A DNA stretch of 33,421 nucleotides from a virus, in the IMG/VR virus record IMGVR_UViG_3300021142_000106, positions 1-33,421 of that record, one strand, 5' to 3'. The notes beneath the pieces were generated by a model. That model was not told where the DNA came from and did no database searches. It saw only the letters and a list, made by a program, of their open reading frames with translations. The stretch's first letter is position 1; each line of letters begins with the position of its first letter. Below are positions 5,835-9,091 of this stretch, piece by piece. Both the position numbers and the translations under genes were made by a program.

Positions 5835-5840
5835 AGCCTA
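5835..5840 (-). promoter_or_regulatory. TAGGCT box 7 nt before spike gene
   Basis: TAGGCT-N7-ATG. Here the TAG is also the stop codon of the hub gene, so termination-reinitiation coupling is an alternative explanation for this copy. Confidence 0.3.
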
Positions 5841-8423
5841 CGCTTGGCTCGCCGCGTCCGCCGAGCCGTCGTCGTCGCCGAAGACCGCGTCGGCGCGGAC
5901 GGTGATGTAGTTCATCCCCTCCAGGTCGACCGCGACGCCGTCGTCGATGCCCCACTTGATGCCGATGGTCTTCGTGCGGAACACCGTCTGGAATCCCGAG
6001 TCCCCGTACGCCTTCGCGTAGGCGTCCGCGAAGCCGTCGTCGAACCCGAGGTCGCGGAGGAACTGCGCCGCGCGCTCCTGCACGACCAAGAACTGCTCGA
6101 TCTGGTTCACGCTCGGCCCGCTCGGATCGCGGTTCACCAGGAGCTCGAACGGGTCGCCCGCGCGCATGTCGAGGATGTCCGGATCGAGGTTGCCACCGCC
6201 GAGCGAGGCGAGGTTCTTCGTCGACACCTTCAGCGAGAGCTCGTTGCGCCCGACGCTCTCGTAGATGTGCTTCGCGATCGCGATCAGCGCGGCCTCGCTC
6301 TTGAACCCGGACACGTTGTGCACGGTCCACTTCGCGTCCGTGCCGCCGTCGCCGGGCAGCCCCATCGCGAGGAAGTCATCGCGCCCTGGGAAGCGCCCGA
6401 CGAGCAGACGCTTCTGCGCCGGCAAGTAGCAGTTGTGCGATACGATCCCCTCCGCAGCATAGGTGTTCGACGCGGTCTGGAGGTTGTAAACGTGCCCAGA
6501 AAACTCGAAGGTTTCGACGCTGACGATCTGGTCCGACGGTACCTCGAAGGAGAGAGCGTCTGGGCACTCGGCAATGCGATCGGCATTCACTCCCGCGTCA
6601 TCAACGCGACTCTCAACGCGCGCGGCGTCCGCCGACGCACCCACGCTGAAGCCGAAGCCCTTCGCTTCTCCCGTATGAGCATCGAAGATCGCGCGCGTCT
6701 CACCACTCACATGCACGACGCGACACGCGGACGTCGACTCCCGAGAGCTCAAGTCCGACGCGCTCAGGATGCGCGCGCAGTCGCCGTCGAGCGCACGCGC
6801 TCGTGCACCGGACGTTTTGAGAACGAGTTGCTCGCGCTTCTTCACGAGCGCGGCGTCGATCCGACTCCACAGCTCGCGGTCGATCGTTACAACGTCGACA
6901 TCGCCATCTTTCCCATCGCCGTGGAAGTCCACCTCGGAGGTTCGTACCCGTTCCCGCGGCGCGAGGCCGCAAACTACCAGGCCGATCGCATCCGTCGCCG
7001 CGTCGAAAAGCTCACGAAGCTCGGTTGGCGCACACTCTTCGTGTGGATCTCCGCCGCTGGCCCGTTCACCCCAGCGGTCCTCGCAGACAAGGTGATCTCC
7101 ATGCGCGAGCTCGCGCATCGGAACCCATCCGCGTTCGGTAAGTACCGGGTGATTCGGGGTACCGGAGAGGACGCGCCCATCGCGTGTCTCAAGACGCACC
7201 ATCGGACCTGAATACGCGCGACGATAGATGCGCTCGATCTCGCGCGCGGTGACTCGCGTCTCTCCTGGAAAACACCTGACTTCGACGTTCGACGGCGCCT
7301 GCTTGTTGTACGAGCGCTTGATCCCGATCTTCGACACGTTGCGGCCGAAGATGAAGACGCGGTGGTTGTAGCCGCCGCGCGTGGTGAACGGATCGTCGGG
7401 TCGCTGCGCGCCGCTCGACGAGTAGAGCGTGCGGGCGCGCGTGATCACGATGGTCGTCCCCTCCATGAAGATCAGGTGCCCGAGCGCGCGCGCGCAGTCG
7501 GTGAGGTAGTCCCAGACCGACAGCTTGCCGGTGCCGCCGCTCGCGCCACCGCCACCCGCCGGCGGCGGTCCGAGGTTCGGCGCGTACGTGCCCTTCGCCA
7601 GCACCGACTCCAGCGTCGGTGCGACGCCGACGCCGCGGTACTCGATCGAGAGCCCGACGAACTGAGGGAAGTGCGCGAGATACTTCGCCACCGCTTCGGG
7701 GAAGATGATCTTCGCGTCGCACACGAGCTTCGGCGGCGCCTCTTGGTCGATGACGACCTGCGTGTTGTCGCGGCACTCCAGCGTCGCCGTCGGCTCGCCT
7801 TCGTCGTTGATGTCGACGTCCCACGTGTCGACCCAGCCCTCGAACCGGTTGTTCGTGCGCTGCCGACCGTCCGCGTCCACGTACGTGTCCGGGAGCACCT
7901 CGCCGCCCGACCCGTACTGCCGCCCGAGCAGCTGCGTGCGGTGATCCTCGGTCGTGATCGTCCCGAGGTAGAACGACACCGCGCACGCGCGGATCGCGCG
8001 CGGGTCGACCGGGCAGTCGATGAACTTGAGCGTGAGCTTCAGCGTGTCGGCGGCGCGCACGCCGTTCTGCGTCCACTGCGCGTCCTTCGGGATGATGCCC
8101 TCGATGAAGTGCGTGCGGTCGTCGCTCGACGAACGCTCGTCCTGCGGGCCGCCGACCTTGCCCTCGCCGGGCACGCCACCGCGGGGCATCAGCACCCAGC
8201 GCTTCGAGAACGGCGCACTCGCGTTGAACGGGACGCTGGTGTCCTCGTGCGCGTAGAGCTCGGCGCGCGCGTCGCTCGTGCCCTTCGCGTTCTTCGCAGG
8301 CTTCTTCGGCACGCGCGACTTGAGCGGTCCGGTGTCGCCGAACTCCTCGAAGCGGATGCCCAGGCGCACCTTACAACGGGGCACGTAAGTTTGCTCTGGC
8401 GACTCGAAGGATTGATCCGACAT
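5838..8423 (-). CDS. Baseplate hub protein (gpD/gp27-like) precursor with intein
   Basis: An 861-residue open frame. The exteins (residues 1-383 and 665-861, 580 residues after splicing) resemble the hub proteins of contractile tails. FIEGIIPKDAQWTQNGVR and VWDYLTDCARALGHLIFMEG fit the tail-hub fold, as does the position between LysM tail protein and gpV-like spike. An intein occupies residues 384-664 and joins NVEVR to CYLPAQKR. The first about 17 codons are unusual for this genome, with many A/T-ending codons (GAT, CAA, CCA, CAA, ACT, CGT, TGT). They copy, with changes, the displaced start at 9125. No Shine-Dalgarno sequence is seen before ATG 8423. The region before it (8424-8449) is AT-rich. 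Confidence 0.8.
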   Translation of the reverse strand: MSDQSFESPEQTYVPRCKVRLGIRFEEFGDTGPLKSRVPKKPAKNAKGTSDARAELYAHEDTSVPFNASAPFSKRWVLMPRGGVPGEGKVGGPQDERSSSDDRTHFIEGIIPKDAQWTQNGVRAADTLKLTLKFIDCPVDPRAIRACAVSFYLGTITTEDHRTQLLGRQYGSGGEVLPDTYVDADGRQRTNNRFEGWVDTWDVDINDEGEPTATLECRDNTQVVIDQEAPPKLVCDAKIIFPEAVAKYLAHFPQFVGLSIEYRGVGVAPTLESVLAKGTYAPNLGPPPAGGGGASGGTGKLSVWDYLTDCARALGHLIFMEGTTIVITRARTLYSSSGAQRPDDPFTTRGGYNHRVFIFGRNVSKIGIKRSYNKQAPSNVEVRCFPGETRVTAREIERIYRRAYSGPMVRLETRDGRVLSGTPNHPVLTERGWVPMRELAHGDHLVCEDRWGERASGGDPHEECAPTELRELFDAATDAIGLVVCGLAPRERVRTSEVDFHGDGKDGDVDVVTIDRELWSRIDAALVKKREQLVLKTSGARARALDGDCARILSASDLSSRESTSACRVVHVSGETRAIFDAHTGEAKGFGFSVGASADAARVESRVDDAGVNADRIAECPDALSFEVPSDQIVSVETFEFSGHVYNLQTASNTYAAEGIVSHNCYLPAQKRLLVGRFPGRDDFLAMGLPGDGGTDAKWTVHNVSGFKSEAALIAIAKHIYESVGRNELSLKVSTKNLASLGGGNLDPDILDMRAGDPFELLVNRDPSGPSVNQIEQFLVVQERAAQFLRDLGFDDGFADAYAKAYGDSGFQTVFRTKTIGIKWGIDDGVAVDLEGMNYITVRADAVFGDDDGSADAASQA
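6479..6484 (+). promoter_or_regulatory. Shine-Dalgarno sequence of the antisense endonuclease gene
   Basis: GGAGGT lies 7 nt before the GTG at 6492. On the minus strand the same bases fall in the codons for Asn-Leu-Gln of intein block F (HVYNLQT), so one short stretch serves intein splicing on one strand and translation initiation on the other. Confidence 0.65.
6492..7211 (+). CDS. Homing-endonuclease-like protein encoded antisense inside the intein
   Basis: 239 residues from GTG 6492, which has a GGAGGT 7 nt upstream. The frame extends upstream into extein DNA, but the gene start chosen here keeps it wholly within the intein. Residues 11-46 (DDLVRRYLEGESVWALGNAI then GIHSRVINATLNARGV) look like a helix-turn-helix. 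Residues 108-186 look like a Vsr/DUF559-type PD-(D/E)xK nuclease: RFENELLALL, RYNVDIAIF, IAVEVHLGGSYPF, RRRVEKLTKLGWRTLFVWI. Candidate catalytic residues are E110, D136, E145 and H147. The C-terminus (GKYRVIRGTGE) resembles tails of such enzymes. Its codons are in register with the intein codons. Long antisense frames are common in GC-rich DNA, so the case rests on motifs, start signals and containment, not length. Confidence 0.8.
   Translation: MPRKLEGFDADDLVRRYLEGESVWALGNAIGIHSRVINATLNARGVRRRTHAEAEALRFSRMSIEDRARLTTHMHDATRGRRLPRAQVRRAQDARAVAVERTRSCTGRFENELLALLHERGVDPTPQLAVDRYNVDIAIFPIAVEVHLGGSYPFPRREAANYQADRIRRRVEKLTKLGWRTLFVWISAAGPFTPAVLADKVISMRELAHRNPSAFGKYRVIRGTGEDAPIACLKTHHRT
7101..7118. 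repeat. 18-bp palindrome encoding MRELAH on both strands
   Basis: ATGCGCGAGCTCGCGCAT is a perfect palindrome lying in frame on both strands. In the intein it gives MRELAH just after block B (residues 436-441 of the precursor). In the antisense endonuclease it gives MRELAH at residues 204-209. Confidence 0.9.
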
Positions 8424-8449: not shown

Positions 8450-9091
8450 ATGCAAGCCGCCCCGATTGAAGTTGGCGCGACGTTCGGACGACTCAAGATC
8501 ATCGGACCGGGGGCATCGAACAAGGGGCGGACGCGCGTGCACGTGAGTTGTGCGTGTGGTGTCGAGAAAGATGTCGATTGGTACGACGTCCGACATAGCA
8601 AGATCGTCTCTTGCGGCTGCCTTCATCGCGAACGATTCATCTTCAAGAAACACGGCCTGACGCCCGATAACGGCGACCATCACCCGCTCTACAACACGTG
8701 GGTGGTGATGAAGCAGCGTTGCTACAACCCGAAGCATCCCAAGTTTGCGGCCTACGGCGCGCGTGGGATTGTCGTGTGCGAGCGGTGGCGCGAAGACTTC
8801 ACCGCGTTCATCGCCGACATGGGCGAGCGCCCGCGCGGGACGACGCTCGACCGGCGTGAGAATGACGGCCCCTACGCGCCTGAAAACTGTCGGTGGGCGA
8901 CGCGCTCTCAGCAGAACCGAAACAAGCGACCAAACGTGATGCTCACGTGGAATGGCATCACGCTGTGCGTGCGCGATTGGTCCACGCGTCTTGGCATCGG
9001 AGCATCGACGCTCTCGTACCGCATTCGCGCCGGTTGGAATGTCGAAGCCGCGCTCACGACTCCCGCGAGCTTCGGCAATCGGCGCGTGTGA
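8450..9091 (+). CDS. HNH homing-endonuclease-like protein inserted at the hub gene start
   Basis: 213 residues. A Cys pair CACG (C34, C36) and SCGC (C55, C57) suggest a zinc-binding N-terminal domain. The core is AAYGARGIVVCERW and LDRRENDGPYAPENCRWAT (about residues 101-151), the signature of a phage HNH family related to AP2-type endonucleases. QQNRNKR follows, and then a C-terminal DNA-binding segment (WNGITLCVRDWSTRLGIG). It is on the plus strand, opposite the structural genes. It is related to the gene at 10832-11509 (same domain order and core). It lies between a displaced hub-gene start at 9125 and the recoded start at 8423. Codon use is less GC-biased than in the neighbours, consistent with transfer. 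Confidence 0.88.
   Translation: MQAAPIEVGATFGRLKIIGPGASNKGRTRVHVSCACGVEKDVDWYDVRHSKIVSCGCLHRERFIFKKHGLTPDNGDHHPLYNTWVVMKQRCYNPKHPKFAAYGARGIVVCERWREDFTAFIADMGERPRGTTLDRRENDGPYAPENCRWATRSQQNRNKRPNVMLTWNGITLCVRDWSTRLGIGASTLSYRIRAGWNVEAALTTPASFGNRRV

Follow-up and report, generated by a model that had tools for sequence, protein, structure and literature searches.

An intein in viral DNA, overlain on the opposite strand by a long open reading frame, raises the question of whether one set of codons can encode both a protein-splicing element and the enzyme that mobilizes it. The stretch analyzed here, hereafter the window, comprises positions 1 to 33,421 of IMG/VR virus record IMGVR_UViG_3300021142_000106. 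An earlier note had proposed that a canonical intein in this DNA lacks an endonuclease in its own frame and that its homing enzyme is read from the other strand.

Intein and antisense gene in the window

The intein interrupts a minus-strand gene whose neighbours include those for baseplate-wedge and tail-sheath proteins; outside the intein, family profile searches of the host-gene sequence returned no protein-family match. The features of the locus are as follows:

5838..8423, minus strand: host gene of the intein, 861 codons, a tail-region structural protein (the "hub" of the earlier note)
6432..7274, minus strand: intein, 281 residues, Cys1 to Asn281, followed by Cys+1; Pfam Intein_splicing E=1e-10
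7272..7274, minus strand: intein block A, Cys1, from the sequence; invariant in alignment A3
7149..7160, minus strand: intein block B, Thr-Pro-Asn-His, residues 39–42; T39 and H42 invariant in A3
6480..6494, minus strand: intein block F, His-Val-Tyr-Asn-Leu, residues 261–265; the plus strand holds part of the Shine-Dalgarno sequence and the nuclease start codon
6432..6443, minus strand: intein block G, Val-Ser-His-Asn, residues 278–281; a -10 box on the antisense strand in many relatives, not clear in the window
6492..7211, plus strand: putative antisense homing-endonuclease gene, 239 amino acids; GTG start, TGA stop at 7209–7211
6479..6484, plus strand: Shine-Dalgarno sequence GGAGGT of the antisense gene, seven bases before the GTG
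6513..6791, plus strand: predicted N-terminal helix-turn-helix DNA-binding region, residues about 8–100; helix-turn-helix matches of family members, profile match to 2lvs with E=1.8e-5
6801..7157, plus strand: predicted Vsr/EDxHD-like PD-(D/E)xK nuclease domain, residues about 104–222; PF18741 E=6.4e-6 and fold matches
7088..7211, both strands (approximate zone): nuclease C-terminus over the intein block A/B region; purifying selection in both frames in the equivalent zone of relatives

All class 1 intein residues are present in the window (Cys1, TPNH, HVYNLQT at residues 261–267, His280-Asn281, and Cys+1). With the motifs complete and both the Pfam Intein_splicing and the TIGR01445 (intein_Nterm) scores above their cut-offs, the element is the canonical intein that had been proposed. 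A split intein or fractured gene was ruled out by the one continuous 861-codon open reading frame through the intein. The proposed lack of an endonuclease in the intein's own frame was confirmed across the family: among 35 members, 34 match Intein_splicing, one matches a pretoxin Hint family, and none matches an endonuclease family (LAGLIDADG, HNH). The antisense gene lies entirely within the intein, opposite residues 22–261, and the codons of the two strands are in register, with position 1 facing position 3 and position 2 facing position 2. Its length, GGAGGT, GTG, codon register, and span are exactly as first described.

In the AlphaFold model of the window intein, the splicing blocks mostly have pLDDT above 90, while the middle is modelled at pLDDT 30–50, with values below 50 over most of residues 160–240. 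The top PDB matches of this model are inteins and Hint domains, in agreement with a predicted Hint fold. The model suggests that the ends of the intein fold as a Hint domain and that a long linker, for the most part disordered, makes up the middle; much of this linker resembles a nuclease shadow. The consensus DFHGDG...VEVV in the intein frame corresponds, on the complementary strand, to the nuclease core YNxD...VAVE. The profile of PHROG family phrog_15127 ("head protein") matches the window intein (6432–7274), its middle included; it therefore partly models the antisense-nuclease shadow and may mislead annotation. A free-standing HNH endonuclease gene (8450–9091, plus strand; phrog_374, E=4.7e-58) directly precedes the host gene and is read from the other strand; like the intein, it is missing from the relative L106 and is possibly a second mobile element.

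The antisense protein and its family

The window antisense protein matches Pfam MTES_1575 (PF18741) with 26.6 bits, below the curated cut-off of 38.2; among 47 antisense proteins of the family, 35 have a PF18741 match and 15 a resolvase helix-turn-helix match at E<=0.001. The helix-turn-helix-like N-terminus noticed earlier is supported by family matches to HTH_7 of resolvase, HTH_23, and HTH_58, together with the 2lvs match. The AlphaFold model of the antisense protein has a pLDDT of 89.7; the alignments used for structure prediction held window and viral-contig rows only. The top Foldseek match of this model is the catalytic domain of the homing endonuclease I-Bth0305I (E 2.8e-3, prob 1.00), and VIA-align superposed the model on Vsr (1cw0; Z 10.5, 117 residues, 3.1 Å) and on I-Bth0305I (3r3p; Z 9.6, 93 of 97 residues). 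These fold matches and the PF18741 matches bear out the Vsr/PD-(D/E)xK-like nuclease domain that had been suggested. The alignment of the antisense proteins upheld three of the four catalytic residues put forward with it: E110 is conserved in 46/47, and D136 and E145 in 47/47. The fourth, His147, did not hold, being present in only 10/47; in most relatives the His stands at column 152, a position occupied by Tyr in the window, and His occurs at one or the other position in 41/47 and at neither in 6/47. The antisense protein is thus predicted to be a helix-turn-helix and Vsr/EDxHD-type nuclease.

A lack of homologs of the plus-strand protein would, according to the earlier note, have spoken against a real gene; homologs were found in 126 phage records and 485 viral stretches. 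In tblastn searches against phages, the intein matched 127 records and the antisense protein 117 at E<=0.001 (126 at E<=1), and in every record listed or fetched, except the Acinetobacter phages, the antisense match lay opposite an annotated intein-bearing gene. Phage records with the element have Gordonia, Salmonella, Pseudomonas, Klebsiella, Escherichia, Vibrio, Haemophilus, Mycobacterium, and other hosts, and two plasmid records carry an antisense-nuclease element. In the phage Vivi2, the antisense protein matched at 39.7% (E=9e-33) and the intein frame at 32.1% (E=5e-17). The joined host protein, with the intein removed, gave no tblastn match in phages. Among viral contigs, neither single-protein query (P0001 or P0002) found a match and an alignment query was needed; alignment A1 returned 485 related stretches, of which 80 were kept. 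Both frames are open in 76/76 parsed loci of these 80, and the remaining four proved alike on inspection. Bacterial genome contigs, searched with alignment A4, yielded one locus with the same layout (L108); sequenced bacterial genomes may carry few antisense-type elements, or the patterns used may have missed them. Judged by these sequence matches, the layout is not peculiar to the window and marks a large family.

Several of the records fetched bear on annotation and gene context. In Escherichia phage Snoke (L023, 2272–4131), the intein is annotated and the antisense gene is not, and the antisense gene is likewise unannotated in the other intein-bearing records fetched. One portal-MuF gene (L085, 2246–5635, minus strand) contains two inteins, one LAGLIDADG and one antisense-type, and a MuF gene (L037, 1772–4153, minus strand) combines an antisense-type intein with a C-terminal Ntox50 domain. 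In virus Rctr197k (L021, 616–1968, minus strand), the gene named "head morphogenesis" is a dCMP deaminase with this type of intein, and it probably owes its name to the shared intein.

Long antisense open reading frames are frequent in DNA as GC-rich as the window (about 69%), and the antisense frame could be an empty by-product of base composition and intein codon usage, with the intein as the sole gene. Because choosing loci by the nuclease could bias the count of open frames, a second set was chosen by intein alignment alone. In this set, which holds the best full-length matches and leaves out more distant inteins, the antisense frame is open in 69/69 distinct inteins at GC contents of 33–68%. 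Based on the codon usage of their own exteins, 57 of the intein-picked loci should together contain 328 antisense stops, and they contain none (log10 P about -167, a value not to be read literally given shared ancestry); in the nuclease-picked set, 491 were expected and again none was seen. As a control, the in-register antisense frame of the free-standing nuclease homolog of Acinetobacter phage IME285 contains 12 stops (13 in L105), in line with nothing being coded on the other strand. These counts rule out a chance open reading frame arising from GC content. The frame is open in phages of 38–48% GC too, the nuclease frame is under stronger constraint than the intein frame in the middle of the element, the antisense protein has independent Pfam and fold matches, and codon choice in the intein suits the Shine-Dalgarno sequence and start of the antisense gene, so that an empty by-product has next to no probability. 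Antisense stops in relatives, which had been named beforehand as evidence against the gene, occur in none of the 69 intein-picked or 76 parsed loci.

Constraint and expression signals in the shared codons

Comparison of 24 listed close pairs revealed that, in the middle of the element, position 3 of the nuclease codons is the most variable and position 2 the least; the exceptions have very low divergence (a tie in the near-identical pair L060/L061, and positions 1 and 2 reversed in L010/L024). In the intein N-blocks, variation at position 1 often equals or exceeds that at position 3, and the exteins vary like ordinary genes on the other strand. By a simplified count of four site classes, which models neither transitions nor codon bias, the middle has an omega of 0.16 [0.13–0.20] for the nuclease and 0.42 [0.34–0.49] for the intein, and the intein N-blocks have 0.38 for the nuclease and 0.22 for the intein. 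This pattern indicates that the middle codes mainly for the nuclease, while the N-block overlap codes for both proteins. The intein omega below 1 in the middle may reflect a linker function, or the simple count may underestimate omega. Both frames are under purifying selection over the N-blocks, in keeping with the dual coding that had been proposed; the synonymous versus nonsynonymous comparison of related inteins suggested at the time thus found constraint in both frames, with that on the nuclease stronger in the middle. Selection on the intein frame only was ruled out by the position-variation pattern and the omega values.

The disordered middle of the intein model might also be expected if the nuclease gene were genuine and the intein frame were merely kept open after splicing had been lost. 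Blocks A, B, F, and G nevertheless retain their catalytic residues, the intein frame has its lower omega of 0.22 over the N-blocks, and the host genes are structural and must function; we regard a loss of splicing as very improbable.

Analysis of block F indicated that the antisense gene starts at the codon opposite its His (CAT giving ATG, CAC giving GTG), and that block F Asn-Leu-Gln/Glu reads GGAGGTT or similar on the other strand. Synonymous choice is skewed accordingly: the block F Leu codon is CTC in 47/57 loci (14.7 expected) and the His codon is CAT in 43/57 (20.1 expected). Compared with synonymous resampling, Shine-Dalgarno-like motifs occur in 42/55 loci (17.5 expected), TATAAT in 20/55 (1.8 expected), and TGNTATAAT in 12/55 (0.31 expected). 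In Salmonella phages, the codons of the last intein residues, GIIAHN, read TGCTATAAT on the other strand. A consensus promoter for the antisense gene was sought in the window, and none was found. By their composition, intein codons in blocks F–G appear to double as start codon, Shine-Dalgarno sequence, and often -10 box, through skewed synonymous choice.

Probable mobility and comparison with known systems

The host genes of family inteins include MuF, portal, portal-MuF, and dCMP deaminase genes as well as the tail gene of the window. In the relative L106, which is 84% identical in protein, the same gene is uninterrupted (SNIEVR|CYLPAEK), forming an intein-less allele, and no nuclease match was found in the L106 record. 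Likewise, jerseyvirus ER10 is intein-less and its close relatives have the intein. Comparison of the window with L106 showed a lower mean identity within about 150 bases of the insertion site than further out; in the co-conversion check of LSPA1 against ER10, no clear identity dip was seen near the insertion site. In Acinetobacter phages (L019, 455–1345; L105, 2501–3391), a free-standing relative of the nuclease lies beside an intein-less MuF-like gene; it may be ancestral to the intein form or have escaped from it.

Both frames are conserved and selected, and expression signals, nuclease homology, a predicted fold, full containment, and empty sites are all observed. The locus is very probably a mobile intein whose homing endonuclease is a separate opposite-strand gene, wholly inside the intein and in antisense codon register. 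Read in the direction of the host gene, the DNA would give a self-splicing intein; read in the opposite direction, the same codons would give a helix-turn-helix and Vsr/EDxHD-type nuclease, whose own Shine-Dalgarno sequence and start lie in block F and which in many relatives also has a separate -10 box in the block F–G region. In a co-infecting phage, the enzyme would cut a host-gene copy that lacks the intein, at the insertion point or close to it, and repair templated by the copy with the intein would spread the element. An own promoter would allow the nuclease to be produced independently of, and perhaps before, the late structural host gene. All sequence-testable parts of the mobile intein first proposed hold; homing and splicing are inferred.

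The antisense gene might instead encode a real nuclease that serves phage competition, defence, or Vsr-like repair and is only sheltered in the intein, as a marginal NCBIfam match (E=0.0078) to an anti-phage protein, in its nuclease region, and the Z ranking, with the Vsr repair nuclease as nearest fold, would allow. We consider such a role unlikely. The nuclease, stop codon included, lies inside the splicing element in 64/64 loci, in many of them with its end one or two codons away from Cys1, and this full containment, the patchy intein-plus and intein-less alleles, and the several unrelated host genes are all typical of homing; the nearest Foldseek match is also a homing endonuclease.

Taken as a homing system, the family is probably a phage-wide class of mobile inteins, about 90% coded on both strands (median overlap 0.896), in which the splicing motifs of blocks F and G are synonymously tuned as start, ribosome-binding site, and promoter, and the enzyme is freed from the timing and fold of the host protein. 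Such a class would add a configuration to the three textbook ones, and with the enzyme on the other strand, it may explain phage inteins that spread yet seem endonuclease-less. It would also offer a large number of strand-overlapping gene pairs open to testing, both of whose proteins have known folds, and in which protein-splicing motifs serve in addition as start codon, ribosome-binding site, and promoter. With it come HTH-Vsr nucleases, uncharacterised and in the hundreds, whose likely target sites are readable from their own flanks and which have possible use as site-specific nucleases.

Vsr, the very-short-patch repair endonuclease (1cw0, 1vsr), shares the fold of the antisense model over 117 residues (Z 10.5); its function is repair, and it has neither a helix-turn-helix region nor an intein. 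EDxHD/Vsr-like homing endonucleases, I-Bth0305I among them, were reportedly described by Dassa and colleagues in 2009 and by Taylor and colleagues in 2011, and resemble the antisense protein in a Vsr-like catalytic domain with conserved Glu and Asp and a helix-turn-helix region beside it. To our knowledge, such EDxHD enzymes lie in group I introns or between split-intein halves, and none overlaps a translated intein. The relative in Acinetobacter phage IME285 (L019, L105) belongs to the same HTH-nuclease family and stands beside an intein-less MuF gene; it has no intein, and its in-register antisense frame is closed by 12–13 stops.

Searches of open-licence full-text papers gave no description of an antisense-nuclease intein layout, and to that extent the novelty claimed for it stands. 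In a review, inteins are grouped as full-length, mini, or split (PMC7765530), and the present layout fits none of these three configurations. Canonical mobile inteins are likewise self-splicing inserts in important genes that carry an endonuclease within, but theirs is an in-frame domain, whereas here it is a separate gene read from the other strand of the same codons. Antisense homing endonuclease genes are known from nuclear group I introns, where I-DsqI cuts the intron-less allele (PMC9548176). In both systems the homing gene lies on the strand opposite its host element; however, the host element of I-DsqI is a ribozyme, with no protein on the other strand, whereas here both strands are coding.
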